From contig JALIZF010001530.1 of NCBI GenBank assembly GCA_029948255.1, positions 294,501 to 358,500 on the forward strand: a stretch of DNA of 64,000 nt, written 5' to 3'. This document shows positions 3,159-25,527 of this stretch, one piece after another (positions within the stretch are counted from its first letter, which is position 1; each line of letters starts with the position of its first letter). Position numbers and translations under genes: made by a program. The DNA is from Telmatactis stephensoni. Taxonomy: Eukaryota > Cnidaria > Anthozoa > Actiniaria > Isophelliidae. Under the pieces are notes generated by a model. It was not told where the DNA came from and ran no database searches. It worked only from the letters and a program-made list of their open reading frames with translations.

Positions 3159-3163
3159 GTATT

Positions 3164-5785: not shown

Positions 5786-5891
5786 AGGTAATATATTTAA
5801 TATTGAATTGAGTATGAAATAGATTATTAACATAAACATGCCACATTACTGTCTTGAGTCTTGATCATACTCTAAAGTTTTATGCCATCTA

Positions 5892-6198
5892 GCACATAAC
5901 TTTAATAAGTATTGTTATATAGTTTTATTAGTGATTGAATAAATAAATGAATAAATTAATGACTGAATGATTCAATGAATCAATGACTGGAAAAGTGAGA
6001 AGAGTGAGGGAAGCCATCTACACATGTAACACAGGATGGAAAGACCTTACCTGACCTATTGTAGGCCTCAAAGGGTCTTTACCCCTAGATGGCACATAAC
6101 TTTAATAAGTATTGTTATATAGTTTTATTAGTGATTGAATAAATAAATGAATAAATTAATGACTGAATGATTCAATGAATCAATGACTGGAAAAGTGA
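5892..6198 (+). repeat. Exact 107-bp direct repeat, 200 bp apart
   Basis: 5,892-5,998 and 6,092-6,198 are identical (from GCACATAACTTT to GACTGGAAAAGTGA). The 93-bp spacer carries a short hairpin-like segment (AAAGACC ... GGGTCTTT). The repeat lies in a presumed intron of the copy A gene. Perfect identity implies a recent duplication or gene conversion. Confidence 0.9.
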
Positions 6199-6322
6199 AT
6201 GGCAAAACAGTTCACTGTACCAAAGATATTCTTACTGACCCATCATGTAAAAAACTTTACATTTGAAATTATCTTTTTAACAATAAACTCAAGCTAAATT
6301 TAAAATCATTTATCAATAACAG

Positions 6323-8161
6323 GTCTGACCAAGAGTATGATGCCATGCATGATGATGATATCAAGTCTAGAATTGAAAGTCGTCAATGAGACCACTGACA
6401 CTCTCTCAGAACAACAAATGCGTACCCAGATGAAAAAGGTAGAGGGGGAGAGACACTGGCTTACATGGCATGACCACTCAGGTTTAGGTAATCAAGGAAT
6501 CTTACTTTTCCTGATGCGAGAGTTAAATGATCCTGCTGTACATCTCACAGATGAAGAATACAAAGCAAAGTTTGGAAATCCAAAGAAAGTTCAGTCTGTG
6601 ATAGAGCAGCCATGGCTCTACATGATGGGAAAGTCTGGGTCAAGTGATGCTGACCAGCTTACATTTACACCAACAAGAGAATGCCTCCGAGGCCTCAAAC
6701 AGCCTCTACAATACAATAACATTAATATACATGACGATATGAGGTTCATGAACGGCGATAATCCTAGTGTAGAATTTGAAGGTGGTACGCAGAAAGGAGG
6801 TCATCTTGGGTGTTCTGGCTGTGATGGTGATACCTGGATGGCAGATGACTACGCATATATGTCATACCGCAGGTATAAAACCCTCAAAGAGAAGAAAGAC
6901 CTGGTCCTATCTGGAGTTTTTGGGAAAAAGGGAGGGATTAAACCATTTGACAGACTAAAAGTTGATGAGCATCGAAAAGAACTTCAAGCAAGAGGTGAAG
7001 ATTTCAATGGTTTAAAACCAGATCTGCAACAACGTCTAAACGAAATTCTTGGTGGGACCACCAAACGTCCAGCTTTGATCCACACTTACAATACTGATAA
7101 AGTTGAAACTTTCTGACATCAACTTAAACAATTACGAAGTACCTTTCTTCGAACCTTTTCATTGCTGCCTGAACCACATTGAACATATCATTACCGAGCT
7201 GCCAACACAACATATCTGATGTTGAAACCTTAATTTTGCTGAGAGAGACAATATCAATTTCTTTAAACAAACAAAAATTGAGGTGTGTGGATTATAGAAG
7301 AGCTTTGTTACAAGTAACAGTTAGACTTACCATGAATGAGAACATTGATGACAATGTTAGGGACTTTTAACAACATTTTGTGAGATGATGGAAATATATT
7401 ATGCCTATGAAGATCACCGAAACCCACGTCAAATACTGAGACTTTACAATGTTACACTGAAACACTCACTAGTTGTCCGAGCAGTTTTGACATCACCACA
7501 GAAAATGACGTAGAGAAAGTTGTTTGGCCTCTACTACCACCAGATCATTGACCATGCACCATTAATATACCGTCTAATCTGTCTTAGATCCATCAACGCT
7601 GAGCTCTTTGAAAGATTTTTTGATAGAATAGAAGACATAACACGAAAAACTTGGAGCAAGAGATCAGAGGACCTTATACCAAATGCATTTCTTCACATTC
7701 AAGGGGAAGACTCCCAGGAAGAAGAACAAGAAGTAGTGGTCAACCAAGAACGAGAGCTATCAAAAATTGCAAAACATCTTCCAGAGCCTCAAAATATAAT
7801 CTTCAGTAAGGAGATCTTGGTAAAGAATTCAAGAATATGGCAAGCTCATGTGCAGAAAATTAGTGATTACTTGGCTGTTGGCAAAGTTTGGTGGAAATGG
7901 CATGACAATGGTTCCATTGAGTTTTACGATGGTAAAGATGAGCCTCAGACAAGACCCTGCGGTCCAAACCTATACCCTTTTCGATCAAACTCCATCAAGT
8001 CAGTTCAAAGGCATCTTGATGACACCTGGAAGAAGTGCATGGAAAAGCCTGAGGATCTACCAGTGTATAAATTAATAGATGACAAAGGCAAGGTTGTTTT
8101 TAACAGAAATGATGAATCTACAGAGATGGAACAAGAAATGGAACCCTGTCAATGTTACTAA
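6323..8161 (+). pseudogene. Copy A gene, catalytic-core exons (frameshifted)
   Basis: Matches copy B 20,506-22,310 along its length. The frame 6,337-7,116 has HWLTWHDHSGLGNQ (first conserved Asp), MNGDNPSVEFE (second), GGHLGCSGCDGD (CxxC zinc pair) and a SAP-like helix pair (LKVDEHRKELQARG). After frame changes near 7,100 and 7,380-7,520, the frame 7,520-8,161 has YYHQIIDHAP (HxxxxH) and CLRSINAELFERFF (candidate catalytic Glu). All candidate catalytic and metal ligands shared with copy B are kept although the frame is broken at least three times. The protein is presumed to be the transposase of the family. Copy A cannot make it whole. Confidence 0.75.
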
Positions 8162-8354
8162 AGCAAGAGCCAGTGAAAATGGTTAGTTTCACAAAGTAGT
8201 TATGTAGTATTGAATGGATGTTATTGAGATAGCCAAAACATTAGATACAGAACTGTAAACATTAAACAACTCTCAGCCAACCATTATCAACCAGGATGAA
8301 TTTCTAAATTTCCTGAATATCTTTTTGTTAGAAAGGAAGTACACATGCAACTGG
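8162..8354 (+). other. Copy A intron segment before the DIRS insertion
   Basis: No gene seen. Corresponds to the intron that follows 22,310 in copy B; the DIRS element entered at 8,355 and the intron resumes at about 13,259. Confidence 0.4.
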
Positions 8355-8376
8355 ATTCTCTTCGTATACATTCCTC

Positions 8377-8496
8377 ATTATGACCTCATTATGCGATCCT
8401 TAATCGCGCATGCGCAGCAGCCCACTATTCAAAGATCCATTGTTATGGAAATCAATTTGTATAAAAAGGTAGCAACCCGGATAACCGTCCTCTTCT
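8377..8496 (+). repeat. Left inverted terminal repeat of DIRS
   Basis: About 120 bp, the reverse complement of 13,071-13,190 with no difference that I can see. It contains ATCGCGCATGCGCAGCAGCC. Outside it, 8,355-8,376 is the unique left end that is matched in the internal complementary region. Confidence 0.92.
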
Positions 8497-8680
8497 TTTT
8501 TCATGCACTGAGCTAGTCAGGTAAGCCCACTTCTTAGCCAGTACGTCACTTGGTGACTTTGAATTCACTGGTTTTCTTCGTTTACATTTACTGTTAGCCA
8601 CAGGTTAACGTATATTATCTTTTTATTGACTCTATTGGTTTTGACAGAGAGACCGGAATTCACAAGTCTTAAAAGCAACC
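8497..8680 (+). promoter_or_regulatory. DIRS 5' untranslated leader
   Basis: Non-coding stretch between the terminal repeat and the gag ATG at 8,681; expected to hold the element's transcription start. I see no distinct promoter motif. Confidence 0.3.
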
Positions 8681-9942
8681 ATGTCCTCAAGTCCCGAACG
8701 AGACGAAACCGAGGAGAAACTTCTTGCCGAAGAACAAGAACCTTCAGTGGGGCCAGTCCCAGGACGAAAAGAAACATTTGGTCGATATGACATTGCTGAA
8801 CTTCACCACAACCTTGGTTTAGACCGTATGTCAAAGGCTATCGAAGATTTGGCTGGCCTTGTAAAGTCTCAGGCCCAAGCCACTCAACAGTCTTCAGAGA
8901 GCGGTTCGCTCCCTGTACGACAAAAGGCTAAAAAACGCCGAACCGAGCACCATGAAATCTCGGAGGAAAGCTTCCAGGCAGAGAGCGGTTCGCTCCAATC
9001 TGCTAAGAGACGTAAAACAAACGAATATTCTGCAGAAAGCGGTTCGCTTAATTCTGCAAGAGTTCACGGCACTACACAGGCTGAAGTATTTGATCCTACT
9101 TTGAGTCTAGCTTCTGGTTCAGAAGGCACGGATGCCGGTGAAAGTACTGACGAGGAGGTGGATTTGCCTCCATCAGTTTTTTGACTCAGAAGACGTCGGT
9201 CCTAAAATTAGCAACTCGCTTGCCACCAGAATCACTGATGCATTTACCAAAAAACCCATTGAAGAAAAAATGAAAGCCATTGGCGAGAAGTATAAAACAC
9301 CCGAAAATTGCCCGCTTGTTTGCATTCCTAAAGTCAACCAAGCGCTCTGGAGCGAATTGCCACGTGTGTCAAAACTACGTGATCTCGGGATGCAAGAAAT
9401 ACAGAAGTCGATTGTAAAAGCTAGTCAAGCTTTGGCACAAATGGCTGACGATATTATTCAGTCCAAAAAGAACAACACTCAGCCGAAGCCCAAGGAGCTG
9501 TTGGGTGTGTTGTCAGACTCTCTGACTTTCCTTGGTAATGCTTGCTACCAAACGTCTCTCAAGCGACGTGAAAACCTCAAACCTGAGTTGAGTAAGAGTT
9601 TTCAGGCTCTTTGCCTTCAGTCTACACCTGTAACACAATCGCTTTTTGGCGATGATCTGGCGAAACACGTTGACGAAATCGCCAAAGCCAACAAAATTAC
9701 TTCCAAGGTCTTCAAGCCTTCCAGCACTACGTCGACAAAAACGCCGAGTAAGCACTTTCGCCGCAGGAGCGATAGCTCGCATACTTTTTTTACGGGACAG
9801 ATATCAAGCTCCGCGGCAGAGAAATCCAGGATACGGCTACAAGAACTACAGTTCAAGAGACCAATCCAGGAACCAGACGTATTCCAAGAAAGGAGACCAG
9901 ACCAAGTCTCAGCAAACCAACTCCAAAACCACGACCTAAATC
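8681..9942 (+). pseudogene. DIRS gag-like ORF, two one-base frameshifts
   Basis: The first frame (8,681-9,184) starts with ATG and is acidic, with three AESGSL-type repeats and basic nuclear-signal-like clusters (KKRRTEHH, AKRRKTNEY). At a run of six T near 9,176 one base too many ends the frame; removing it in thought joins to SEDVGPKISNSLA and the KYKTPENCPLVCIPKVNQ block typical of DIRS gag. A second T-run near 9,785 shifts into the frame holding YQAPRQRNPGYGYKNYSSR, the Arg/Tyr/Gln-rich C-terminus expected for nucleic-acid binding. Gag packages element RNA. Both breaks are in T homopolymers, so sequencing error is a real alternative to decay. Confidence 0.8.
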
Positions 9943-11957
9943 ATGTGAGTTGCACCGGTAATTTAGCAAACTATGTTGATCAATGGAAACAAATCACCTC
10001 AGATCCTTGGATCATTGAAACCATCCAAGGGTATCGGCTGGAATTTGTGTCGCAGCCGAGACAGGATGTATTTCCCATCCCTCCAAGATTTGATGACGAG
10101 CAAAAAACTGCCATTTCGAGTGAAGTTTCGAAATTGCTCTCCAAAGGAGCCATTGTTGAAGTTGAGCATTGCTCTAAAGAATTTATTTCAAATATTTTTG
10201 TTGTCCCTAAGAAAACAGGTGATTTGAGACTGGTGATCAACCTTAAACCTCTTAATGAATGGGTTTGTAAGGCACGCTTTAAAATGGAAACTATAGAATT
10301 CGCGAGACAATTGATTCATCGTGACGATTTCATGGCTTCTATTGATCTGAAGGATGCTTATTTCAGCATTCCTATTCACTACGACGATCGTAAATATTTG
10401 CGATTTTTATGGCAAAATCGTCTTTATGAGTTTGTTTGTCTCCCTTTTGGATATAGTTTAGCCCCAAGGACATTTACCAAAATTTTAAAGCCTGTTTACG
10501 CCCTACTGAGAGCTCAAGGAATTCGAACTACTTATTATATAGATGATACTCTCATTGTTGCATCGTCAGCGCACCAGTGCAGTGAACACACACGCCAGGT
10601 TTCTAGTCTGCTCTCAGATCTGGGTTTTCAAATCAACTACGGTAAATCCCACCTTGACCCGTCAAGGACCATTTCTTTTCTTGGATTTCAAATTGATTCT
10701 ACAAGTTACACGTTGACATTACCGGAGGAAAAAGTTGATAAAATTGTCCGAGTCTGCAGGAGACTTCTCAATACAACTGAGCCGACCATAAGGGAGGTGG
10801 CGCAGGTGTCCGGGAATTTAGTATCTGCCTTCCCAGCTGTGAAGTATCTGCAACTTTTTTACAGATCAGTTGAAGCATGCAAGTCATCCGATATATCCCT
10901 AGGAGCGCGCTACGACGATACCGTCGTACTTTCTCCCTTAGCCCGCCAAGATTTATCCTGGGTTATCGATAATATCCGGGTTTTCAATGGTAGACCTATA
11001 AGGGATCCCCCATTTACCCATACTATTGAATCGGATGCTAGCCTGCTGGGTTGGGGTGCTAGCTACAACGGTCAGACCTCGGGTGGCCACTGGACACCTG
11101 ACGAGTGTGAATTTCATATCAACTATCTGGAGTTGTTAGCAGCTTTTTTCGCCTTAAAATGCTATGCTGACAATGATGCCAATATGTGCCTTAAGAGTGA
11201 TAATACCACAGCAGTGGGATATCTCAATAAAATGGGGGGCATGCATTCCCCACTGCTCAACAACCTAGCTCGAGAGATTTGGTCGTGGTGCATGCAGCGC
11301 CGAATTTCTTTAACTGCCCAACATATTCCTGGCGAGTGCAATAGTAGTGCGGATTTTGGTTCTCGTCATTTTAATGACAGAACAGAGTGGAGTCTGCATC
11401 CGACTGTGTTTACATGGGTCAGCCAGCGAGTTTTCTGGCCCGAGATCGACCTTTTTGCTTCTCGCCTGAATGCCAAACTTGAGCGCTATGTCTCTTGGCA
11501 CCCTGACCCAGGGGCCTGGGCAACCAATGCATTCTCTTTTTCGTGGCATAACTTAGTGTGTTACGCTTTCCCTCCATTTAGTGTGATCTCCAAAGCATTA
11601 TCAAAAGTCCAAGAAGATCAGGCTCAACTTTTGCTGATTGCACCAGTGTGGAAAACCCAAGCGTGGTATCCAGTGCTCTTAAGCCTTCTAACAGATCGTC
11701 CTGTCCTGCTCCCCCAATGGAACAACCTGCTGAGATTGAACCACAACGGCCGCCTGCACCCTCTCCGCAATCAGATGCGCCTGGCCGCTTGGCCTATATC
11801 AGGTCAGCCCTCACAAGCCAAGGCCTTTCAGCAAGGGCTGCCGAAATTATCACCAAGTCTTGGACTCATGGAACAGGCAAGCAATACAGCAAACCATGGA
11901 GCATGTGGGTCAGCTGGTGTGATCAACTCAAGGTTGATATCATTCAAGCCCCTGTAA
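9790..11957 (+). CDS. DIRS reverse transcriptase-RNase H polyprotein
   Basis: Open through the whole enzyme. RT: KTGDLRLVINLKPLNEW, DFMASIDLKDAYFSIPIH (catalytic Asp), LPFGYSLAPRTFTKIL, TYYIDDTLIVAS (catalytic Asp pair) and LGFQIN. RNase H: ESDASLLGWGA, INYLELLAAFFAL, LKSDNTTAVGYLNK and SSADFGSRH supply the D-E-D-D residues. A C-terminal block (FWPEIDLFASRLNAKLERYV, then DPGAWATNAF) is conserved in DIRS pol. The start is uncertain because the gag frame is fused to it upstream by frameshift. The 3' end overlaps the recombinase ORF by 310 bp in another frame, as usual for DIRS. It copies element RNA into single-stranded circular DNA. Confidence 0.93.
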
Positions 11958-12757
11958 CGGTGCTTATTGACTTTCTGTTGACTATTTTTGATCAAGGCAA
12001 ATCTTACAATACAGTTAATACATATAGATCAGCTATATCAGCTACTATCAAATCTATTTCTGGCCGAGATTTAGGTTCGCACCATCTAGTGTCTCGTTTC
12101 ATGAAAGGTATTTTCCAAGTGAATCCTCCTCATCCGAAATATAATGACACGTGGGACGTGAATCAGGTGACTCAATACCTTAGAGGACTGTTTCCTGTGA
12201 ATGAACTCACTCTGAAAAACCTTTCACTGAAATTAGTGACTTTATTGGCCTTAGCATCAGCCCAAAGAGGTCAAACTTTGCAGGCATTAAATGTCACCAA
12301 TATGAAAATTCAAGAAGATAAGATAATTTTTGTTGTCAGTGATAGGCTTAAAACTACTCGACCAGGCCATGAGAGTGTAAACGTCGTTTTTCCTGCACTA
12401 CGAGACAACTGCCCTCTTTGTCCTCGTTTGCATTTATTAGAATATATTAAGAGAACAGAAGCACTAAGAAATGGCTGTACTCAGTTATTTATTTCATATT
12501 GCAAGCCTCACAAGAGCGTTACGTCTAGCACTCTAGCTCGATGGATTAAACAAGTTTTGGAAACAGCTGGTATTGATGTGCAGAAATACACAGCTCACAG
12601 CACCCGTAGCGCAGCTACATCTAAAGCCTTTCTCAATGGTGCATCAATTAGCGATATCTTAAAGTTAGGCAATTGGTCCAACGAGAATACATTCTCGAAA
12701 TTCTATAAAAGGTGTCCACCTTCGAGTGTATCTATTGAGCAAATGATTTTGTCGTGA
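11648..12757 (+). CDS. DIRS tyrosine recombinase (YR)
   Basis: About 370 codons. N-terminal SAM-like core-binding region (TKSWTHGTGKQYSKPWSMW, VNTYRSAISATIKSI), then the catalytic domain with Arg in LASAQRGQTLQAL, the H-x-x-R pair in YTAHSTRSAATSKAF and the nucleophilic Tyr in NTFSKFYKR near the end. All key residues of the family are visible. It joins the circular DNA copy to the target by strand exchange, so it replaces the DDE integrase of LTR elements. It lies 3' of pol in the +2 frame and overlaps it. The true start may lie inside the overlap. Confidence 0.93.
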   Translation: MENPSVVSSALKPSNRSSCPAPPMEQPAEIEPQRPPAPSPQSDAPGRLAYIRSALTSQGLSARAAEIITKSWTHGTGKQYSKPWSMWVSWCDQLKVDIIQAPVTVLIDFLLTIFDQGKSYNTVNTYRSAISATIKSISGRDLGSHHLVSRFMKGIFQVNPPHPKYNDTWDVNQVTQYLRGLFPVNELTLKNLSLKLVTLLALASAQRGQTLQALNVTNMKIQEDKIIFVVSDRLKTTRPGHESVNVVFPALRDNCPLCPRLHLLEYIKRTEALRNGCTQLFISYCKPHKSVTSSTLARWIKQVLETAGIDVQKYTAHSTRSAATSKAFLNGASISDILKLGNWSNENTFSKFYKRCPPSSVSIEQMILS

Positions 12758-12842
12758 CTTAAGAGAAAGGTTAATAAACCCAATTAAGTGTGACAGTGTG
12801 CACACGTGTCTATTGTTTCTTTTGTCACCTCTGCTTTGAAGA
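12758..12842 (+). other. DIRS spacer after YR gene
   Basis: Short non-coding spacer between the recombinase stop and the internal complementary region. Confidence 0.4.
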
Positions 12843-12963
12843 GCGATTAATGAGGTCATATTGCGGAATGTATACGAAGAGAATTTAAAATTAAACAAGA
12901 GGTACACTTACCTTGCAGGATAATTGTAATTCTCTGAGTGTACATGGAGCAATTATGACCTCA
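12843..12963 (-). repeat. DIRS internal complementary region
   Basis: Left half (to 12,884) is the reverse complement of the element's left end (ATTCTCTTCGTATACATT...). Right half (from 12,884) is the reverse complement of the right end (TGTTTAATTTTAAAT at the border). Their direct joining at 12,884 shows the circle junction and marks the element borders at about 8,355 and 13,258. Confidence 0.92.
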
Positions 12964-13070
12964 TCTACCCTCCCCTTGGTTTTTTGCTTTTTTTCATCAA
13001 AAAAAAAAAATACATGTCCCTCCCATTCATTTAATCGTCGACAAAAGATTACCTACAGGGGGCACTCAAG

Positions 13071-13190
13071 AAGAAGAGGACGGTTATCCGGGTTGCTACC
13101 TTTTTATACAAATTGATTTCCATAACAATGGATCTTTGAATAGTGGGCTGCTGCGCATGCGCGATTAAGGATCGCATAATGAGGTCATAA
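13071..13190 (-). repeat. Right inverted terminal repeat of DIRS
   Basis: Inverted copy of 8,377-8,496. Followed by a right-end extension to about 13,258 that is matched only in the internal complementary region. Confidence 0.92.
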
Positions 13191-13319
13191 TTGCTCCATG
13201 TACACTCAGAGAATTACAATTATCCTGCAAGGTAAGTGTACCTCTTGTTTAATTTTAAATTCTATGACAATATTACATAGTAATAGCTTATCTCATTTGT
13301 GCATAATTTATGATTATAG

Positions 13320-14354
13320 ATCAAAGAGAATGCCATGGAAATCCACTTGAAGATGATAGGGAAGAAACCACTTCAGTATTGTTTGGTATGTCTTTGTTTT
13401 GTTTTGCTTTGTTTTGTTTTTTTGTTTTTGTTTTTGTTTTTGTTTTTGTTTTTGTTTTTGTTTTCACTCAGATTCTTTTTGAAGTGCTCTCTATTTGTGG
13501 TCAAATTAAATATAATTTTGTTATTACAGATCTATGTGGCTATGACATCTGTGAAGAGCACAAAAGAGAGAAGCACACCAATGATATTGTATCCTCATCT
13601 GCTCATACATGCACATCAGGCTATGAAGGTATTAAATAACACTTATTGTCAACTCAACAGAACACTTGATTCATATTTTGTTACTTAATTCATTTTCTTA
13701 TCCCTATATCTAGATCAAAGTGATCAAAGCAGTTCATCTATTATTCCTGGTGTATATTTGATGACAACTGAGAGTGATAACGGTAATTTTATTCAGCATG
13801 TGGAGTAATGCTTGTGAATCTGACAAATAATTTCAGATGCAATGATTATTTTATAGACCAAACATGTGATAAATCTGATGAAGATAATGTGATTGACATC
13901 CTATTTGAAGATGATATTGTAACAAATTATACAGATGTATCTCACAACAGAACAACAACTGCAACTGGCACCACTAATATCACACGCAAACTGTTAGAAG
14001 TGATAAAGAGTTATTTACCAAGAACTGCTAAAGCACTGAGAATAGTATTAGGTCTAACTTCTGAGCTGATAGAATTCGACAAAATTAAACATAACTTAAA
14101 CAAAAATCCAAAATCACGATATCTAATTAACAGATATGAAAGCTCTTGCCGCAAGGATTCAAGTAATATTACTAAAGGAAGTAAATATTTTACAGAATAA
14201 AATAAAGACTGGGATAAGGATTTTTTTAACACATGACAGACTTCCTTCCAACAAAGATTATGCTAATGAAAATATATCACACTATCTTAAGCAATACAAG
14301 GTTGCAAACAAATTGTTACAAGAATGGGGCATAACTATTCATCTCGTCTCATGA
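13320..14354 (+). pseudogene. Copy A gene, 3' exons (acidic linkers and C-terminal domain)
   Basis: Three short AG/GT-bounded exons (about 13,320-13,385, 13,530-13,628, 13,714-13,782) precede a last exon from 13,837. The last exon ends with KLLQEWGITIHLVS, the match to KLLQYWNITVHLKC at the end of copy B. A frame change between 14,136 and 14,200 splits it. Acidic low-complexity text (DKSDEDNVIDILFEDD) resembles the acidic linkers of copy B. A (TTTTTG)n-like tract sits in the intron at 13,395-13,465. Pseudogenised. Confidence 0.65.
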
Positions 14355-15438
14355 ACAAATTTAGTCATGATTTGACAGTCATGGGTATCAGTTCAATGCA
14401 AAAAGGCTATATACAATAACTATAGTATATACATTGATGTACTATTCCTTTCCAGTAGCTTATAGGGTATGTACTCTTTGCAACAGATATTAACCAAATT
14501 GTACATTTTGTATCAGTTCAAGTCCCAAAATATATCAAATTCTTACTGGTGTGATAAGAAATAGATCGTCTTCAGGTACATGTATAATTTTTATATTGTA
14601 GTACATGTACATGTAAAGCTGCATCATTTACTGGCTGGTAGTACCTCAAAATATTCACTATATCGGTTAAGCTCCATGTTTACAAATGAATCAAATACCA
14701 TAAACAGCCTTTTTGCAATTAACTGCAGTATATAGGGTGTAATATATATACATTAATATCAATTATGGTTGTAACATTTCAACTTACCAAAACAATGTCC
14801 AATTCAGTAGGGCAGTAAGCTTAATAATTCTTAATTTCATATGCCATGCACGTTCGATATGATCAAGAAATCCCTTGAAATTGAAAAAAAGGTTTACAAA
14901 AACCATGTAAATAGGTTGTAAAGATAACTGATAAATTCCAAGTATATGAGTTTAAGCTTATAACTTAACTTATTAAGCTTACAAAAATGCAAAAATGCTT
15001 TAAGACATATCAAATGTAAACGAGAATTTCAGAAGGAAACTATATGAAAATAGAAATCAAAACAATAGTTCTTTCAAGTGTGCAGTTTTGTACGTGTCTT
15101 ATTTATTTCAATGAATAAAACTTACCTTGTAAGACAATCCATGATGCGAAGATTAGATGCTTGAATGTCATGATGATCAGCGAAGTCCACAGCGAAGTTC
15201 GATTGAAATACATGGCTTCATATTTTCAATTGATAACCTGAGTGCAGACTAGCAAAGCTTTAAACAATATTTTAATTGATCGAAATAAAATAAGGCCAAA
15301 TGAAGCTACTTAAGCTAGAGTTTCGTGCCAAGCATGCTGTGCCGATGTCCGCCATTTTGTTTTTGGTTTCAGGACCTTTCGGGACAGTCCCGCATATCAC
15401 GACCGCCAACTTCGCGGGGGGGGGGTTTTGTCGGTGGT
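14355..15438 (+). other. 3' non-coding part of copy A
   Basis: AT-rich with no gene seen. Near the end are a CCGCCATTTTG motif (about 15,349; reverse of a YY1-like AAAATGGCGG) and the G-run just inside the right TIR. Copy B also has a CCGCCATCTTGG motif near its right end. Confidence 0.5.
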
Positions 15439-15464
15439 CTGAACCAGGCCTTAACATACTTGAG
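15439..15464 (-). repeat. Right TIR of copy A
   Basis: Exact inverted copy of 2,693-2,718, followed by TT at 15,465-15,466. Just inside lies a G-run (around 15,415-15,425, in a CGCGGGG context) similar to one at the right end of copy B, the only clear subterminal likeness on this side. Confidence 0.92.
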
Positions 15465-15466: not shown

Positions 15467-16474
15467 ATTTTTGTCTTGACTGTAGCAACCATTTTGTTTC
15501 GGGACGTCCAGCAAAAAAATCGGATAAGTTTAATGTTGACTGGTACACTTAATTTGGGACATTCGAAAAAAATAGAGAAAGATAATACAATAGCTGCTCA
15601 AGATCAAGCTGAGAGAGCAAAGATTAGAGGAAAGAAGAAGGCCGAACAAGAAGTTAGCTTACAACAAGAGATCGTAATGAAGAAACTCCGCTTGAATGAC
15701 TCAGTAGCTACAGTATCAAGCATAACATTTACGGACGAAAGCAATGATTTTTTTCCAACGACAGCGCAAACTAAACAAAATGAAGAGTCATTTGCTGATA
15801 ATTACAGAGAATTGGCCCAAACGAGAAAACCTGTCAGACAGAAATCAAACCGACAAGGGAAATGTGTACCCAAAAAATATGATGCCTGTTCCCAGACAGA
15901 TGATTTTGAGTATTTATTTAGCTCCAACAAGAAAGTCATTGAATTCGACAGACTATTTCAGGAACAGTGACGATACAGTGTTGTTTTATACTGGTCTGCC
16001 CTCTTACAACGTTCTGAACTTTGTGCTTGAACTTGTTTTACCGTTTGTTTCTAGTCGCTCTCAAGGACTGAGTCCTTTTCAAGAACTTGTGATGATCATG
16101 ATCAAATTGAGATTAGATGTGCCTTTTCAAGATCTGGCCTACCGCTTCAACGTCTCTGTTTCCACAGTATCCAGAATTATCCATAGTTGGTTGGAGGCTA
16201 TGTACACAAGTTTGTCTAAATTTGTCCACTGGCCTTGTCAAGATAGTTTGTTGGCAACAATGCCACAATGCTTTAGATTCAGTTTTGGAACCAAAACTAC
16301 TGTAATAATTGACTGCTTTGAAATTTTTATTGAAAAGCCTTCAAATTTACTAGCAACAGCACAGACATTTAGTTCCTACAAGCACCACAACACAATCAAG
16401 GTGCTGATTGGTATCACCCCACAATGTACCATTTCATATGTGTCTGAGGCATGGGGCGGCCGAACATCAGACAA
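15467..16474 (+). pseudogene. THAP-DDE (ISL2EU-like) transposase, 5' part
   Basis: Starts in the last third of a THAP zinc domain (SNHFVSGRPAKKSDKF, then TLNLGHSKK) after an acceptor-like GACTGTAG, with the earlier THAP part missing. A charged linker follows, then [21 protein letters not shown] (helix-turn-helix) and the first catalytic Asp in [18 protein letters not shown]. The frame breaks at about 15,545 and 15,965. Coding stops at GGRTSD where copy B of the large transposon entered; the C-terminal half is at 25,146-25,527. The protein is a cut-and-paste transposase, now dead. Confidence 0.85.
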
Positions 16475-16500
16475 CTCAAGTGAGTTAAGGCCTGGGTCAG
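16475..16500 (+). repeat. Left TIR of copy B
   Basis: Matches the complement of 25,123-25,145 over the first 23 bases (to CCTGGGT). AA precedes it as the target duplication. Confidence 0.9.
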
Positions 16501-16632
16501 CATATGCAAATTAGGAAAAAAACATTTTATTTTTTATCTCCCTTATTTCTCAATCAAATTCAATGAAATTTCACAGGTTTACAGTATTTAACAACTTCTG
16601 ACTTTTTAGTGGGTTAGGTGTACTTAAGACCA

Positions 16633-16660
16633 ATCACGTGCTTAGTCACGTGATCTTATA
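16633..16660. promoter_or_regulatory. Paired CACGTG motifs in left subterminal region, copy B
   Basis: AATCACGTGC and AGTCACGTGATCTTATA, about 160-185 bp inside the left TIR. The second 17-base string recurs exactly at 33,334-33,350, near the left end of the unrelated Kolobok-type element. Confidence 0.55.
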
Positions 16661-17129
16661 ATCGTCTATCAATCAAATAAAAATGGGGTTACAAAAACGG
16701 ACAATGTAAAAGCTTTTTAATGAAAAATTGGCACTTCAAATAAATTGTCTCAAAGTCTTGGCCCAGAATGGTTGCTTATCTAGAGGAAAAGATGACTAAA
16801 AATTTACACGAACTTCTGATTTGCAATCTATGGCTTTTGATGAGTGTACAGCATGGTCTAATTAATATGAAATCATCCATTCTAGGCCAGGATGGGTAGA
16901 TTTTATGTCGTTCTAAGGAAATGACTTAGGTTTACAGTAAAAAAATAACACTTTAGCAACCCCATTTTAGAAAGAAAACCGTTTCTTGTCCTACCATCCT
17001 ACCTAGCCATTTTGTATTTGCCAACCGAGCTTGAATGGAAGACTGGGTCCCACAGTACGTGGTAATTTGAATATTATAATAAGTTGTTTCTCCGCTATCT
17101 AGACAACACGGGCTCAAAATCTATGAGCA

Positions 17130-17182
17130 TTAACCAATCACAACTCGTATTTCTACGGCAAACAAAGATGGCGGACGAAGAG
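17130..17182 (+). promoter_or_regulatory. Likely promoter of the copy B gene (CCAAT, YY1-like)
   Basis: AACCAATCACAAC (CCAAT box) lies about 30 bases before AAAGATGGCGGACG (YY1-like). The ATG in the latter opens only a five-codon frame (MADEE). The first credible coding ATG is at 17,558. The spacing suits a TATA-less promoter with start near 17,165; this is inference from motifs. Confidence 0.45.
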
Positions 17183-17557
17183 TGAGGAAAAATAGCCATC
17201 TTTTACGTGAAAGTATAAGTAGTTCTGCGGTGGTACAGGACATGAGAAATAGATAAGATGAGTATTGAATATGTTTTCTTTTCATTTATAAAATACGGAA
17301 AGACAATTTCTTGCCTAAAACTGTCATATTTTCAGTTACAATTTGAAAAATATGTAATTGCTTCTGAAGAGAAATTTACAAATAAAGTTATCTTTCTTAA
17401 CGTGTGGCTTGTTCTTTGTATACGTCTTTACGCGCCGAACTTCAGCAGTCCCTGCAAAAAGCACATGCGTATTAAATAAGATAATTTGAGCGCGAAATTC
17501 AGAAAAAGTTTTCAGAGTTTGTGAAAGTGGAATTCATAATAAGTAAGCTTATTAGTT

Positions 17558-17744
17558 ATGACTGAAGTTGTTTCGTGTGGGTATGCTAGAGTTTTCCTTT
17601 GGAAAACCAAACATTCAGCAATAGAAAATTTAAAAAGAGAAGCAAATGAAAGTCAGACCAAGTTCAAAGTGAGAATTTTGGATGAAAGATACCGCCTCTT
17701 CATCGAGAACTTCAACCATTATGAAAGGATGCAACTTGATAAAG
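17558..17744 (+). CDS. Copy B gene, exon 1 (putative transposase N-terminus)
   Basis: ATG at 17,558 opens about 62 codons (RVFLWKTKHSAIENLKREAN, ILDERYRLFIENFNHYERM), then a donor (GATAAAG, GTGAAG). Ending after one base of a codon, it joins in phase to the acceptor at 18,808, giving DKA-HFLKHYKN. Matching phase and no nearby stop support this exon over an unspliced 73-codon frame. The product is helical and basic; I recognise no domain. Copy A lacks this exon. Confidence 0.6.
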
Positions 17745-17817
17745 GTGAAGTAGACCTCAGTTATTTATATCTTAAATAATGCTGTGCATTTTAAACAAAT
17801 AAAGTAATGAATCCAAA

Positions 17818-18605
17818 GGTATGGTAGCCTGACAAAATAGACTTGAACACTAAAATAACTTCACAAAAATGTCACAAATTAATCATTTCAGCTGGTGACT
17901 GAGTTCTGATTGTAAGTAAACTTGCTATATCTGCATGTACATAATAATATCAGATATCTGTTTTGATTCAAACAATTAAAAAGTTGACTCCAAAGGCATT
18001 GTAGAGTGCATTTCATATGTCTGTGAAATATAAATCAAGTTGTTTGTGCCTATTTAGTTGCTATTTAGTTGGTATTTAGTCACTAGCACTGAACCAGAAC
18101 TTTCTTATAATAGTAATTTGTAGAAAGTCTGTTTCAATGAAAGAAACAATGAAGGTTTATTTGAAGTAATAAAGTAATTAAAAGCTACTATGCAAAGTCA
18201 TTTGACTCAATTCTCTTGTGTATTTGATGTCCCCAGTGTATTGCTATTATATAAGAAAGTTCTGGTTCAATGCTAGTGACTAAATAGCAACTTAAAATAG
18301 GCAAAAATAACTTCAATCAATCTTATTTCACAGACATATGAAATGCACTCTAGCACATATAAAACTAAATTGAACCGTAAAATAACTTTACAAAAATGTC
18401 ACAAATTTCATTTGACATGCTGAGTTTTGATTGTAAGTAAACTTGTTACATCTGGATGTTTTTATATTCAAACATCAGAAGGTATGGTAGCCTGACATAT
18501 AAAATAGAATTGAACACTGAAATATCTTCACAAAAATGTCACAAATTGAATTTTTGGGCTGTTGACATAGTGATTTGTAAGTATAAACTTGCTATATATG
18601 TAGAT
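17818..18605. repeat. Three related ~120-bp units in intron 1 of copy B
   Basis: Units at about 17,818-17,940, 18,360-18,460 and 18,480-18,605 share AAAATGTCACAAATT and TTGTAAGTA-AACTTG. The foldback element at 18,002-18,352 separates the first from the others. Likely a tandem array later split. Confidence 0.65.
18002..18352. mobile_element. Foldback MITE in intron 1 of copy B
   Basis: Ends TAGAGTGCATTTCATATGTC and its complement GACATATGAAATGCACTCTA with arms of about 110 bp (to about 18,110 and from about 18,244) around a 130-bp core. TA at both ends may be the target duplication. Non-coding. Confidence 0.85.
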
Positions 18606-18808
18606 ATTTCAGATTCTGATTTTTATGAAAGTCACAAGCCCAAATAAATCAATGAATAATAAACTGAAAAATAAATCAACCCAACATTCTTGATTTACTT
18701 TCTTTATTTCAATAGAATCACCAACTTATTTATTTTACATATGTAAGAGTTTTATGTGGCTAAAATACAATTATAATAGTAATCTGACATATTTTTTTGT
18801 ATCATCAG

Positions 18809-19678
18809 CACATTTCCTAAAACACTACAAAAATATTGATGAGAGATTTACAAACTGGAGGTCAAAAACTGACAAAGAAAAATACATTCAAGCCTTCTCA
18901 AAAGAAGCATGGGAAAAGTGTGCAGAAGGAAGGAAACAAATGCACAGAGTGTCTAAGTGTGAATGCTGTCAAACAACTAGTACACTGAGTTTTCCTGTGA
19001 GATATGGTAAAAACCAAAAAAAACTGGCCAAAAAGAGGGAGCCATTTACAAATCTTAATCTAACTGCAAGGAAAAACATCCCTTCATACAGTACATCTAC
19101 ATCTAAGCCACTAGTGAAAGAAATAAAACAAATTGGTACGTCAATCTACCAGAACTTTAATGAAGTTTGCCAGAAGAGACTTGGCAAGCCTTTTAATGAG
19201 GTGATGTGCCTTGTTCCTGAAGCCCAGCTTCAAAAGAAAACCTCTCCTGTTGAAAGAAAGAAGGAAATAAGAAGGGTTAAAAGACAATTTAAAAAAGACA
19301 CAGAACAAGCATGGAAGGAGAATGATGTTGACTCACACTTGGCCCAAAGAACATCATTTAGATCAAGAAATGAACAAAGATTAAATCAATCTTTTGAAAC
19401 AATAGAAGATGCAAGACAAAGAGTACAAGCAACACAGAGAGGACAGAATTCACAGAAAAGTCACAGCCCTAAAAGCATCACTGGAGACCTAGAAGAACTA
19501 CTGATTGACTTCCAGCAATGGACACCAGGAACTCCAATAAACTGGACTTCCAAGGCCAAAGAATACAATATTAGAAAAAAGGGAAGTCAAGATCCACCAT
19601 CAAATGCAGGGCAGCTATTAAGGGCTTATCTAATAGCTCAAGGACTTGATGTGACTCCATTTGAAAAAGAGAAAACAG
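18809..19678 (+). CDS. Copy B gene, exon 2
   Basis: 290 codons between an acceptor (GTATCATCAG) and a donor (AAAACAG, GTATGT). N-terminal helical part (KNIDERFTNWRSKTDKEKY), a possible zinc site CECCQTT preceded by HRVSK, long basic coiled-coil-like helices (SPVERKKEIRRVKRQFKKDT), and a conserved C-terminal small domain (ELLIDFQQW, TPINWTSKAKEYNI, GQLLRAYLIAQGLDV) that also survives in copy A. That domain reads like a compact helical DNA-binding module, but I cannot name it. Phase fits exon 1 and exon 3. Part of the presumed transposase. Confidence 0.75.
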
Positions 19679-20239
19679 GTATGTTAAATGTAGCACACTA
19701 TATGACAGTCAGATGCCTAATTTTGTTTATTTTTATTATAGCTACAGTAACAATAAATATGCAAAAATGATGATAATAAGTAATTTTGAATTATGTTGCA
19801 CAGACAACTCCATTAAAGATGCACAAATCACAGTCACAAATTCACAGCTGGCATACAGTATTTTTGATCTCAAGACCTGGGATTTGAGAACTAAGGAAAA
19901 TCCAATTGTTTCTTCGTACGAGTGAAGATGTATTCAGTACTTAAATTTATAACATTAACATCAACTAACATTAAATGAATGAAAAATACTCTTCCATAAG
20001 ATTGTTACATTTTAGCAAAACATGTGATTGGGGAATAGAATACATTGCACTGCTGAGAGTCAACCAGATTGCACAATCACTAGTGACTTATTATGAAGTA
20101 TAGTGGATAAAAAAATTATCCAATCAAAATATATTTGTGCAAACATATCAAACAAACAGTATTTCCTTGTGTACTGTAAAGGAAACAAAAGACATGGAGT
20201 ACAATTTTCATATAATTATATTAATCTTACTTTTTGTAG
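19679..20239 (+). other. Intron 2 of copy B gene
   Basis: AT-rich intron between GTATGT and TTTTTGTAG. No embedded element seen. The short frames in it match nothing. Confidence 0.6.
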
Positions 20240-21333
20240 GAATGAAGGTGAGAAGAAAATTGAAACGCCAGAGGGGTGGAGAAATTTCTGTCCCATTACA
20301 GAGACATAATCTAGATATTAGAAAAGAAATTAGACAGAAAATTGAAAGTGGGTATTACAACCTTGGAATGCCAGTTCTGGAGACTGAATGTACCAAATTG
20401 GTGCTTACAAGTGAAGGAAAAATAGAAAAAAAGGCCTCTAAAATGATGGCAAGAAAATAGCCCCTATCGCTGATAAGGGAAAAGGCACTAACAAACAATA
20501 AGAATTTGATGCACTTAAGAACAGATGAAGAATATGAGGCAATGTCACCAGAGGAACTGAGGAGAAGATTCAATGACATTTATGAAAAGGTCACTGATGA
20601 ATCAACTGTGGACGAGTTGAGAGAACGACTTAAATCCTTCGAGAGAACAAGGCACTGGCTTGTCTGGCACGATCATTCAACAATCGCCAACTCAGGATTT
20701 ATGTTGTTCCTCCTCAGAGAGTTATATGATCCAGCAGTTCACCTCTCCAACAAAGAATACCTGGAAAAATATGGCACACCAGTTGATGTGCAATCAAAGA
20801 TTGAAACTCCCCATTTGTACATGTTGGGTGTAAGTGGATCCAATGATGCTGATCAATTAATGTTTGTACAAACAAGAAGAGAATGTCTGAGGGACTTGAC
20901 CCAACCTATTGCTACTGCTGAAGGAATCCAAGTCCAGGATAAGATGAGGATGATGAACAGGGATAGCCCTGCAGTAGAGTTCGAAGATGGGACTCAAAAA
21001 GGTGGACACAGGGGATGTTCAGGTTGTGATGGTGACATGAGAGAAGCTCATGATTATCAGTATATGACTTACAGGCCCTACAAATCCTTACAAGAGAAAC
21101 AAGCACTTGTTTTGAATGGCACCTATGGTAAAGATTGCACAAAAATCAAGCCTTTCAAAAATTTGAAAGTTGGAGAGATGAGGAGAGAGCTAAAAGCAAG
21201 AAAGATAAATTCTGAAGGGAAAAAGGAAGACCTAAAATCTAGACTAACAGAGTTGCTCGGAGGGACTTCTCGTCTACCTGCACTTCTGTTTGGAGAGAAT
21301 AACCTTTCATTGTCTGACTTGAACCAACTATGA
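20240..21333 (+). pseudogene. Copy B gene, exon 3: catalytic core N-half, CxxC, SAP (one in-frame stop)
   Basis: Starts in phase after TTTTTGTAG (G-MKVRRKLKRQ), runs to TAG at 20,458, and then continues in the same frame through 21,333. Counting from codon 20,506: Asp56 in WLVWHDHSTIANSG, Asp153 in MNRDSPAVEFE, CxxC at 171/174 in GGHRGCSGCDGD, and a SAP motif at 219-251 (LKVGEMRRELKARKI, then EDLKSRLTELL). Asp153 is 18 residues before the first Cys. The same residues are kept in copy A. This order resembles the RNase-H-fold start of RAG1/Transib/CMC transposases; SAP would bind AT-rich DNA. Function is inferred; the stop suggests early decay. Confidence 0.72.
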
Positions 21334-22310
21334 GGTGTTATTCTTTGAACCACTTCATGTATGCCTCAATCACATTGCAACAATACTAAAAGAGCTACCA
21401 AGACACATAACTGATCGACCAGATACATTACTGCTACTTGAAGAAACTGTGCGTCTCACTCTCAACAAAGAGAAACTAAGAGCCACAGATTATCGCAAAG
21501 CCCTTCTCAAGATCACGATACAACTTGCGGATCACTTAAATGACGATGAAAAAATGCTTCTCCTCTCTTTCTGTGAGATGCAAGGTATCTATTATGAAGC
21601 TCATGGAAAAAGAAGTCCAAGACAAGTTCTTAGACTACATAATATTTCATGGCTCCATGGAAAGAAGGTACAGAAGGTGCTGTGCCCACCTGAAACAGTG
21701 ACATTGAGGAAACTTTGTGGAATCTATTACCATGGTGCTGTCGACCATGCTCCATTTTTAAGCAGGCTTGTGTGTCTCCGCTCAATCAATGCTGAACTGT
21801 TTGAACGGTACTTTGAGCGCATTGAAGACATTACCAAGAAGACCTGGGGGAAACGACTAGAGACCTTAGTGTTAAATGCCTTCCTGCACATTCAAGCAGA
21901 AGACAAGCTTGCAAAGGATAAATCCAGCACATCACTTAAAACACAAGAAAGGGAGATCTCAAAGCTTGCTCTGATGTTGCCTTCCCTGAAGAACACCATA
22001 ATCCCCAAATCAGTGCTAATGAAGCAGTCAAGGGAATGGCAGGCTCATTGTTCAAAGATAGCTGACTACGTGAAGCCTGGAGAAGGGAAATGGTGGAAGT
22101 GGATGGAAGATGGTTCGGTTATGTTTTTTGATGCACCCGGAGAAGAAGATTCAAGGCCAGAAGGCCCAAACTTGTACAACTTCAGATCAAACTCCATCCA
22201 AGAGGTAAAGAAAGACCTCCAGAATATTTGGATTGAATGCTGTAAAACCCCCAGTAGTCTCCCCATTTACAAGCTGAGGGATGAAGATGGTAAACTGGTT
22301 TACACAAGAG
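21334..22310 (+). pseudogene. Copy B gene, exon 3 continued: HxxxxH and catalytic Glu half
   Basis: One frameshift at about 21,330 (in copy A the link reads NNYEVPFFEPFH without break) leads to a frame open for 325 codons. HxxxxH lies at 133/138 in YYHGAVDHAPFL, and Glu154 in SINAELFERYFERI follows 16 residues later. In RAG1-type enzymes a zinc HxxxxH precedes the catalytic Glu by about 20. Later come a Trp-rich segment (GKWWKWMEDGSVMFFD) and GPNLYNFRSNSI. It ends at a donor (CACAAGAG, GTAAGA). Identity between copies A and B is highest around the HxxxxH-Glu block. Confidence 0.72.
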
Positions 22311-22565
22311 GTAAGAGATAATGAAAAATGTACATTGTAATATAATTATACTTACAGTTATGTAAACTGGCACATCACATTGCAACAATATTATTTATCT
22401 TATATACACTTCTCATCACAAGATGTATCTGAAAAAGAAGTAAAACTTTGAATAAATGTTTGTAAAAAATAAAATTAGTCCTTTTTATCACAGAAGATAA
22501 AATGAAACTTGGCACCTTACAAATAATTATACAATGTAACTTCTTTTATTTGTTCTTATTTCAAG

Positions 22566-22926
22566 CTTGCACAGAAGAGATCAATGAAGGCACTATTGGT
22601 AATCATGAAAAAGATGATCCATGTAATTATGAACTATGTGATGATAGAAATGATGATCATGGTAAATTTTCTTGTCCTGATATATTAATGATGCATGTGT
22701 TAATTAATATATAATTATTGGAAAACTGACAATTAACAAACATTTTAGACAAATTGGTTGTTGAGATGAATAACTTTTGTATGACTGAATAACAGAATAA
22801 ATTTGTTTTAATGATTGTGTACAGATAATGTAAATGAAAGCACTTCTCCAAAAGCTAAATATAACCATGATGATCAAGAAATGGAAGAAGAAGAAGAAGA
22901 AGAAGAAGCTGACAATTCATGTGATG
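22566..22926 (+). CDS. Copy B gene, two short acidic exons
   Basis: Exons at about 22,566-22,661 and 22,825-22,926, each with AG before and GT after. They encode Asp/Glu-rich linkers (KDDPCNYELCDDRNDDH; EMEEEEEEEEADNS). Copy A has counterparts of similar size and place. Acidic linkers of this sort may be activation or protein-contact regions; this is a guess. Confidence 0.55.
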
Positions 22927-23140
22927 GTAAAAAGTTATTAGAAAGTCCTTTGCACATTTTAAATGAAACAGCCTTCACTTTAAATCTGTATAATATAGTA
23001 TTTTCAGCTTTGACCTGAATGCTCTTTAGAACAACACCTCTTTTTGTTACACTATAGTGTATGATATCATGCATCACACACCAAGTAAAACATAATATTA
23101 TTAAATGTCAGAAAGTACAAATTGAAATTTGAAAGTACAG

Positions 23141-23277
23141 GGCCCGGTTGTATGATCATGAAGGTTTAGAATAAGAGAATAAGAGTTATCCACTGTATAG
23201 ATTTTGTATAGATTTTATCCACTGGATAAGAATTTATCCGCTGGATAGCGCTATTCAACCTTTGTACAACCGGACCC
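23141..23277. mobile_element. Short hAT-like MITE in copy B intron
   Basis: 137 bp with imperfect inverted ends: GGGCCCGGTTGTAT...AAGGTT on the left and AACCTTTGTACAACCGGACC on the right. Inner ATCCACTGGATAAG repeats. Non-coding. Confidence 0.75.
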
Positions 23278-23494
23278 AGATCTGTATGTAGTAGACTAGC
23301 TGACTAATCATTTAAAAGTATGGTTAATTCTCTATGTCTTGGTTGTATAATATACTAAAATATATGTGCATACATGTACGCTTACTTGTACTGTTGTACA
23401 GATATTATATATCTACCATATTATGTGTAAACAAATTATAACTTAGGTTATTGTAAAAACATATTTTAATAACTGCATCACATTTTTTTGACAG

Positions 23495-24141
23495 AGGATG
23501 GAAGTAATGATCACTCTGACATTGCTCTTGCATTCGATAATGATACACTACTGGACACCACCATAATTAATTCAGCTGATCCTATGTCACATGAACAAGT
23601 TCAAGCAACAAGCTCAATGACTTCCTGTCGTACTCCTCAGAAACATCAATTACAAAAACCTGCAAATGATGACCTAGAACCACCATCAAAAAAGAAAGCC
23701 ACTGTCAACTCCACAACCTTCAAAAGTTACACTCTTACATGTGCTCCTGAAGAGGCTGCTTGTGCTGCAGCTCATAACAATTCTAAAACTGAAATAACAA
23801 CAAAACTAGGAAGGAATGTTGAAAAAGTACTAGGGAAAACAGTCAGTGTCATTAAACTAGATAAATTAAGAGCAGCCCATACTAACAACCCAGCATCAAA
23901 ATATCATGAAGGGCAGTATATTGATCACCTTGTTAAAGTTCAAGCTGAAATTGTTGCAAAGGAAAGAATGTGTGGTAAAGAGGTGGAGAAATGGGACCAG
24001 GAATTCTTAACAAAGAACCATCATGTTCCAACTATGGATGACTATGAAGCAGACATCTTGATATGTGACTTAATAAAAGTGCGAAAGCTTGCTTTGAAGT
24101 TATTGCAATACTGGAACATAACTGTGCATTTAAAATGCTAG
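23495..24141 (+). CDS. Copy B gene, last exon (C-terminal domain)
   Basis: Follows the acceptor TTTTTTTGACAG and is open for about 215 codons to TAG at 24,139-24,141. A Ser/Thr/Pro-rich linker comes first, with a basic patch (PPSKKKATVN). It is followed by a helical domain (KLGRNVEKVLGKTVSVIKLD, MDDYEADILICDLIKVRK) that ends LLQYWNITVHLKC. The same end is in copy A (14,310-14,354). I do not recognise the fold. Confidence 0.7.
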
Positions 24142-25122
24142 AATTAGATTTGAGCAGTAATCAAATGTAAACCTGATGGAACATTAAGCCTAAACGTTTA
24201 TTTATTGTGAGTGCATGAAGCTAAATCAATTCTATATTTGCATTCTTATTTAATTTGTACATATGGATGGAACTTAAATGCACAATTGTATCCAATTAGC
24301 AATTGTCAATTGTAAATAGCATGTATTTCATGAGATTTATTTATTTATTGATAATTTTTTTAAGGTCTATATAATCATACTATACACATTATTGACATTA
24401 TCATACTCAAAAGTGTTTTAACAATAAAATAAGCTTAATCGTAAAGTACGTCATGTAAATGCAAAAAGGAAATACACAATTATTAGCTTAATTGAACATT
24501 ATGCGCTCATTTTACCCCCTCTCTCCATCAGTGCTCCGTTTTAAGGGTATTTAAAGCTAATTTAAAGTAAATTAGTCTTCTATCCTTTTTTTCTTTGAAG
24601 TGCTTTATCCACTAAGTTATATTATCTGCGATACTTCTTGTATTTTTAACAACCACACGTGGGCTATATGCAGTCCCAGGAGATCATGCAATCACGCCAA
24701 ATATCGATCAATCGCTATTTTTCAAAAAGCTTTCTCGTAAAAATAAATTAAACAGCAATTCAGCTTACCTCGATGCCTCGATGAATGCTGTTTATCTCAT
24801 ATTGATATGATAATATATTAGCCTGAAAATCAAACAATTTTAAAGTTTTAACTTAAGAAAGTTTATTACGGCAAGAATCACAATTTAACAACACCAATAT
24901 AAAGCTTGAGAAGATATAAAACCAAAGAAAACGTACCTTTACAAAGTTTTCCGAATGATGATGTTCGTTTACTGTTGATTAAATGCAAAATTATATCTCT
25001 AAAACCAAGCGATTTCTCCAATTTAATACGGTCACCATTAAGTCTTATAATCCGCCATCTTGGATTTTGGAAAATAATAGCTTGACCTTGGGGATTCGCG
25101 GGGGGTCATAAAAGAAGGTCAA
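24142..25122 (+). other. 3' non-coding part of copy B
   Basis: AT-rich with no gene. Holds AATAAAAT at 24,425 as a possible poly(A) signal, one ACACGTGG motif at 24,654 and CCGCCATCTTGG at about 25,051 (a YY1-like site facing inward from the right end). Confidence 0.5.
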
Positions 25123-25145
25123 ACCCAGGCCTTAACTCACTTGAG
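25123..25145 (-). repeat. Right TIR of copy B
   Basis: Inverted copy of the left end over 23 bases, followed by AA. A CGCGGGGGG run lies about 20 bp inside, as in copy A. Confidence 0.9.
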
Positions 25146-25527
25146 AAGTTTTTGACTGAAAACTGTTATCTTGGACAAGCTGGTTCCTGGAGATATGGTA
25201 ATGGCTGATCGTGGGTTCACTATACATGAGAGTGTTGCCTTCAAGAGAGCATCTCTTGTGATCCCACCCTTTACAAAAGGAAAAGATCAACTTGATCCAG
25301 TTGATGTCGAGAAAACAAGGGGCATTGCAAGTGGTCGGATCCACGTAGAGAGAGTCATTGGTCTCTTGCGGAGTAAATACACAATACTACAGGGAACACT
25401 TCCTACAGATTTCCTGACGAGTAATTGTTATGGACCTCTTGAAGATAAAACACCAGTCATTGATAGAGTTATAAAGGTTTGTTCCGCTCTTGTAAATTTA
25501 TGTCCCCCAATTATACCATTTGACTAG
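25146..25527 (+). pseudogene. THAP-DDE (ISL2EU-like) transposase, 3' part
   Basis: Continues the gene of 15,467-16,474 after copy B. KFLTEN at the start, then after a one-base shift [20 protein letters not shown] (second catalytic Asp in ADRG) and [20 protein letters not shown] (catalytic Glu in HVER), ending PPIIPFD and stop. Both parts together give the DDE triad of the IS5-like DDE_Tnp_4 group. Several frame breaks across the two parts mean it is inactive. The rest of the element's 3' end is not clear. Confidence 0.87.

Follow-up and report, generated by a model that had tools for sequence, protein, structure and literature searches.

Results

Two decayed copies of one transposon family

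The stretch of DNA analyzed here, referred to as the window, comprises 64,000 nucleotides from the actiniarian Telmatactis stephensoni (contig JALIZF010001530.1) and contains two copies of one transposon family, elements A and B (Table 1). Each carries a decayed gene that we regard with high confidence as coding for a cut-and-paste transposase with a RAG1 fold and a DDE (Asp-Asp-Glu) active site. The mobility of the family, its ends, the 2-bp target duplications, the predicted fold, and the conserved acidic residues were established by computation. In copy B the reading frame contains one stop (20458) and shifts near 21334, and that of copy A carries stops, in line with the frame decay described in a first-pass annotation made from the letters of the window. 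This annotation had also claimed that both copies keep an Asp in WHDHS, a second Asp 18 residues before the first Cys of a CxxC, an HxxxxH, and a Glu 16 residues after its second His; all of these were located in A and B, and both spacings were confirmed in B. The seven layout residues agree between the copies despite identities of 56% and 46% in the two main reading-frame pieces. The N-terminal exon of B aligned from 18820 to the family protein P0036 with 25% identity.

Table 1. Positions of elements A and B, their parts, and the gene interrupted by B (numbering of the window)
Feature	Position	Strand	Basis or remark
Element B, 8,671 bp, both ends	16475..25145	+	23-bp perfect TIR (terminal inverted repeat), 2-bp duplication, empty-site test
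Left TIR of B, CTCAAGTGAGTTAAGGCCTGGGT	16475..16497	+	
Right TIR of B	25123..25145	-	
Target duplication AA, left of B	16473..16474	.	
Target duplication AA, right of B	25146..25147	.	
TCACGTG and TCACGTGA, 160 and 172 bp from left end of B	16634..16653	+	
N-terminal region exon of B (~308 aa, CxCC motif)	18754..19678	+	start not proven
Intron of B, GT..AG	19679..20239	+	flanked by matches to P0036 residues 59-300 and 319-607
Catalytic domain exon of B	20240..22310	+	3' end inferred from GT donor
Predicted first catalytic Asp of B (WHDHS; D144 of P0001)	20671..20673	+	
Predicted second catalytic Asp of B (MNRDSP; D241)	20962..20964	+	
CxxC of B, predicted zinc site	21016..21027	+	Cys at 21016 and 21025
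SAP domain of B, within zinc insertion	21154..21258	+	Pfam PF02037, 1.1e-8, residues 217-251 of ORF (open reading frame) at 20506
Conserved His of B (H374), candidate third His of the group	21356..21358	+	166/171
HxxxxH of B, predicted zinc site	21731..21748	+	His at 21731 and 21746
Predicted catalytic Glu of B (E519)	21794..21796	+	
Conserved C-terminal region of B	23785..24132	+	tblastn with P0005, P0009, P0010, P0022
ATGGCG, 88 bp from right end of B	25053..25058	-	
CCCCNGCG, 42 bp from right end of B	25097..25104	-	
Element A, 12,772 bp including nested insertions	2693..15464	+	26-bp perfect TIR, duplication TT
Left TIR of A	2693..2718	+	
Right TIR of A	15439..15464	-	
TCACGTGA motif, present twice, at 157 and 169 bp from left end of A	2849..2868	+	
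Decayed catalytic domain of A	6361..8146	+	D 6472, D 6757, CxxC 6811/6820, HxxxxH 7538/7553, E 7601
DDE_Tnp_4 transposase gene, left part, insertion target of B	15744..16472	+	Pfam PF13359/PF13613
DDE_Tnp_4 transposase gene, right part	25148..25527	+	own frameshift before 25171

Conservation of the layout among homologues

Three protein searches, each scoring approximately 8,000 candidates that shared most words, gathered 183 different proteins; the list is therefore incomplete. The chimera P0029 was excluded from the alignments A4 and A6 and from an alignment of the remaining 182 of the 183 proteins. This predicted protein fuses a DUF6589 stretch to a family transposase and may be a gene-model artefact. 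Organism names were available for few of the proteins and comprised the cnidarians Actinostola, Exaiptasia, Nematostella, Oculina, Paramuricea, Hydra, and Hydractinia, the molluscs Mytilus coruscus, M. edulis, Magallana gigas, and Crassostrea virginica, and the amphioxus Branchiostoma lanceolatum. Among the database names listed, members are called 'uncharacterized', 'hypothetical', 'predicted', or 'unnamed'; one Nematostella protein is additionally named SAP domain-containing. No Pfam transposase model passed the cut-off among the families listed (25 of 38 and 25 of 57), an NCBIfam search with five proteins gave nothing useful, and one-pattern scans of viral and of prokaryote contigs found no relatives.

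In the 182-protein alignment, counting proteins with a letter at the respective position (fragments contribute none to the later ones), the first Asp was kept in 161/164 and the second in 169/171 proteins, the Cys pair in 170/173 and 170/172, the His residues of HxxxxH in 146/150 and 145/148, and the Glu in 144/147. Exceptions include a Paramuricea protein with Asn for the first and a Magallana protein with Asn for the second Asp. Free variation of these residues among homologues, named beforehand as the outcome that would speak against a transposase, was not seen. The His adjoining the first Asp is variable (kept in 121/164), as expected for a noncatalytic neighbor. The spacings in the 58-protein alignment A4 were similarly uniform, with 18 residues from the second Asp to the Cys in 55/56 proteins, five within HxxxxH in 55/55, and 16 from His to Glu in 55/55, and, counting columns filled in at least 50 proteins, the CxxC pair forms the only Cys columns conserved to at least 95%. 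When the layout was written as a loose regular expression, it matched 54 of 73 proteins, of which some are fragments; among 12,000 shuffles made from those with at least 500 residues it matched 86. The layout thus exceeds chance.

Predicted fold and domain insertion

The model of an intact homologue (predicted local distance difference test score, pLDDT, of 91.6) contained an RNase H core with a zinc/helical insertion, which is what the first-pass annotation had proposed to look for. Among the matches listed, one RAG1 and one HzTransib chain were the only PDB entries at E ≤ 0.001 for this model, and RAG1, BbRAGL, and HzTransib were the best fold matches of the predicted models. A second model (pLDDT 88.3) was obtained for P0032, which starts with M-I-W-H-D, the WHD strand. 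Among the matches listed by VIA-align, its residue 1 aligned to RAG1 residue 596 (15 rows) or, in a different numbering that we take to be that of zebrafish, 616 (12 rows), and elsewhere to BbRAGL 697, HzTransib 121, P element 226, Hermes 176, and residues 60-62 of retroviral integrases. Provided that no gap falls within its first five residues, Asp 5 lands on D600 of mouse RAG1 (letter checked) and, in HIV integrase, Hermes, and the P element, on the first of the catalytic Asp residues.

A SAP domain was recognized by Pfam in 27 of the 58 A4 proteins at a loose threshold. The segment between CxxC and the conserved His that follows has 112 residues in the family and 65 in RAG1, a difference close to the length of the SAP domain; in our reading, H374 corresponds to H795 of RAG1. 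A 2A-like motif for ribosome skipping lies near the N-terminus of two of the 183 proteins, as DVEKNPGP at residue 44 of P0052 and as DIETNPGP at residue 112 of P0056; a six-frame translation of the window contains no such motif.

Element ends and insertion sites

Perfect TIRs bound both copies (26 bp in A, 23 bp in B). The TIRs of A and B are alike, with four sites in the window versus 0.08 expected. Element B splits a DDE_Tnp_4 gene of the Harbinger/ISL2EU type (15744-16514 and 25171-25527). When the flanks were joined with a single AA, the reading was restored (GGRTSDKFLTEN), and the Pfam match ran ungapped over the junction with 76.5 bits versus 67.5 bits for the left part. A 6-bp duplication gave 70.9 bits and was rejected in favor of the 2-bp AA. 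Copies approximately 99% identical to B were present at two other genomic places.

In the 483.5-Mb assembly, the second coding piece had at least 123 matches, fragments included, and the end pattern CTCAAGTNNGTTAAGGCC (at most one mismatch) occurred 1541 + 1534 times versus 4 + 4 times for the reversed control pattern. A number of the matches listed are paired approximately 665-700 bp apart and represent short non-autonomous elements, ten of which aligned with a mean column identity of 79%. The loci L020-L030 are palindromic non-autonomous elements of approximately 680 bp with long inverted repeats, and GTCACGTGAC occurs close to either end in the ten aligned. Of 13 coding copies, 8 were flanked by both TIRs; the other five showed only one end within the stretch examined. 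Copies 99.9% identical over 8.1 kb at different sites, and further sets with 99.7-100% and approximately 99% identity, indicate that the family moved recently.

Target duplications were counted in 23 elements with both ends, which were selected on the basis of their ends, irrespective of the flanks; the one-ended coding loci L011, L012, L013, L016, and L019 are not part of the count, and the ends of L010, one of which differs at the first base, were placed by hand. A 2-bp duplication was present in 19 of these 23, two of which (L025 and L030) match at 3 bp as well. Two copies from a deep clade, with a 36% identical transposase and the TIR CTCAGGGCAATTAAGG, have the 2-bp duplications AA and TT (determined by eye), giving 21 of 25 elements overall. 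The duplicated sequence is not fixed (TT, AA, GA, AC, AT, TC, TG, TA). The TIRs are 16-26 bp long (CTC...TTAAGG), and their termini read CTCAAGT.. and CTCAGGG... The flanks of L010 show no matching duplication and hold an inverted AACTCGA, possibly marking a rearranged insertion site.

Asymmetric subterminal motifs

In 11/11 left ends examined, TCACGTG or TCACGTGA has its start 157-160 bp into the element. These ends derive from eight two-ended elements, the single left ends of L016 and L019, and the deep-clade element; they include close relatives and were counted as seven groups. A second copy of the motif follows 11-13 bp further in 9/11. CACGTG was absent within 400 bp of the right end in all eight elements (0/8), the right ends of which carry CCCCNGCG at 42-45 and ATGGCG at 88-112 bp (8/8); the deep-clade right end is without ATGGCG. 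In the mini-elements, the left-type motif lies close to either end, in 9/11 at 159-160 bp from one end and, by arithmetic, 158-160 bp from the other; in L023 CACGTG lies at 137 bp, and L027 has none. In the coding copies, an alternative transcriptional role of the motifs, as an E-box and a YY1-like site, is conceivable. The fixed distance in elements devoid of genes would favor a role in transposition over one in transcription.

Other features of the window

Nested in element A, an ORF with a Pfam RVT_1 match is followed by a tyrosine-recombinase-like ORF (by eye), with split inverted repeats (8681-12757), a DIRS-like arrangement. ORFs resembling non-LTR-type reverse transcriptases were recognized by eye at 3656-5386, inside A, and at 186-1226. 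Several consecutive ORFs at 54034-57269 probably represent a mobile or multigene family; those at 54034-54918 and 55681-56937 matched no Pfam family at E ≤ 0.001. Long inverted repeats (194-380 bp, 94-96% complementary) span 48214-57994, and an ORF on the minus strand (47007-47513) resembles a THAP zinc finger.

Discussion

A predicted RAG1-fold transposase with a proposed two-part end signal

The first-pass annotation had placed the gene among divergent DDE transposases of a wider group around RAG1, Transib, and CMC (CACTA-Mirage-Chapaev), and the predicted fold, the conserved residues, the TIRs, and the duplications support this placement. Several observations weigh against it. E248, E371, and E522 are about as conserved as the three proposed catalytic acids, so that conservation by itself cannot single out the catalytic three. 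The superpositions give end points only, and D241 and E519 were equated with D708 and E962 of RAG1 on the basis of secondary-structure order, spacing, and matching end offsets. PDB sequence searches with window pieces and the family profile yielded SAP domains and chance matches only. Finally, 4 of the 25 elements are without a 2-bp duplication: L009 matches at 3 bp alone, whereas no match is seen for L010, L017, or the C112 pair, the latter with ends 13 kb apart that perhaps do not belong to one element.

With moderate confidence, we interpret the family as an unnamed superfamily of RAG1-fold transposons, present in at least three animal phyla, in which a SAP domain is grafted into the zinc insertion, the ends are joined with a 2-bp stagger, and the end signal has two parts and is asymmetric. 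It would consist of the TIR together with CACGTG at approximately 158 bp (about 15 helical turns) on the left and other motifs on the right. The enzyme would act as a dimer bound to the TIRs. Nicking and strand transfer may be driven by metal ions that D144, D241, and E519 coordinate. By analogy to RAG1, Transib, and hAT, the double-strand break would probably proceed via a hairpin, and the released ends would join the target with the 2-bp stagger. The CxxC/HxxxxH site, if it binds zinc as predicted, may keep the insertion in place. The SAP-like domain, the N-terminal region, or both probably read the subterminal signals (CACGTG on the left, CCCCNGCG and ATGGCG on the right), which would give each end its identity.

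Alternative assignments

A less likely alternative is that the elements are divergent EnSpm/CACTA transposons, or belong to Mirage, Chapaev, Plavaka, ESTA, or Lanisha, without forming a separate lineage. The second-Asp motif of CACTA, which we take to be D.PA....G....G...C..C, has the same spacing, and one of 36 members gave a weak Pfam match to Transposase_21 (E 0.085); that the match is no stronger and limited to one member counts, in turn, against the assignment preferred here. According to passages of PMC12730594, that group likewise has its Cys and His residues arranged as C(2)C and H(3-4)H and makes duplications of 2-5 bp. However, the termini are CT..AG instead of CAC, the duplications are mostly 2 bp of any sequence, neither 3 bp nor TA only, and no transposase model passed among the Pfam families listed, the lineages being compared by description. 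To our knowledge, the lineages of the wider group other than RAG1 and Transib are without a solved structure, and the fold match can therefore not rank them.

Membership in Transib or the RAG-like (RAGL) transposons is very improbable, even though RAG1, BbRAGL, and HzTransib head the fold matches; it was rejected by duplication length (2 bp versus 5 bp) and ends (CTC versus CAC). An hhalign comparison of A4 with a single mouse RAG1 sequence also detected no relationship (probability 1.6, catalytic motifs not aligned), a result that counts against the RAG1-like assignment as well. A host gene, domesticated or never mobile, with TIRs belonging to something else, would account for the presence of at least one intron but can practically be dismissed and was rejected because near-identical copies occur in different flanks. 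The genomic matches, at least 123 in number, and the presence of both TIRs around 8 of the 13 coding copies and around both deep-clade copies likewise speak against it.

RAG1, the recombinase of antibody genes, evolved from a transposase. The family is large, in part intact, and to all appearances was active recently; since it combines this fold with other ends, another stagger, and another accessory domain, it adds to the material for understanding the RAG architecture, and the ancestral status of the zinc insertion and of asymmetric ends becomes testable. Many 'uncharacterized' proteins of cnidarians, molluscs, and amphioxus, as well as approximately 3,000 repeat ends in this genome, also gain an identity. 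If the two-part signal holds true, the pairing of ends would have been solved independently of the 12/23 signals of RAG.

Comparison with known systems

No published description of the family was found in open-licence papers of PubMed Central (PMC), and deposition in Repbase under a different name is quite possible. Academ elements are, like the family, eukaryotic TIR transposons. They were rejected as relatives because the duplications are mostly 2 bp compared with the 3-4 or 9-10 bp given in passages of PMC10045372. The CMCT group comprises CACTA-Mirage-Chapaev-Transib, Plavaka, ESTA, Lanisha, and RAG1. In passages of a 2025 paper (PMC12730594) it is characterized by CxxC and H(3-4)H between the second Asp and the Glu, duplications of 2-5 bp, and termini that are 5'-CA..TG-3' 'in most cases'. 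The family agrees with the group in its Cys and His motifs, its duplications, and its predicted RAG1-type RNase H fold with zinc insertion, but differs in its CT..AG termini (compared by description); it thus probably forms a lineage of its own within that group, working like CMCT transposases.

EnSpm/CACTA elements combine CAC..GTG ends with 3-bp duplications, whereas only 3 of the 23 elements match at 3 bp, two of them also at 2 bp. Mirage duplicates TA, and the family uses many dinucleotides. The same difference applies to ESTA, for which passages of PMC12730594 give TA. Duplications of 5 bp are given for Transib and RAGL in passages of PMC4411706 and PMC9435367, and a 5-bp match was seen neither in the 23 elements nor in the two deep-clade copies. 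One RAGL TIR element is listed as CACACCC... in passages of PMC9435367.

The order of the residues in RAG1, which the first-pass annotation had put forward together with their spacing, is that of the family, and HxxxxH is identical; the remaining distances are near but unequal, with 19 versus 18 residues from the second Asp to CxxC and 20 versus 16 from His to Glu. RAG and Transib termini carry a CAC heptamer. The RAG1 core and RAGL (ProtoRAG) combine 5-bp duplications with this heptamer, whereas the family has 2-bp duplications, CTC ends, and SAP in the insertion. Transib (HzTransib) likewise differs in its ends and duplication length, and the family adds to it the SAP domain and N- and C-terminal regions outside the modeled core. 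E-x5-F is common to RAG1, HzTransib, and the family.
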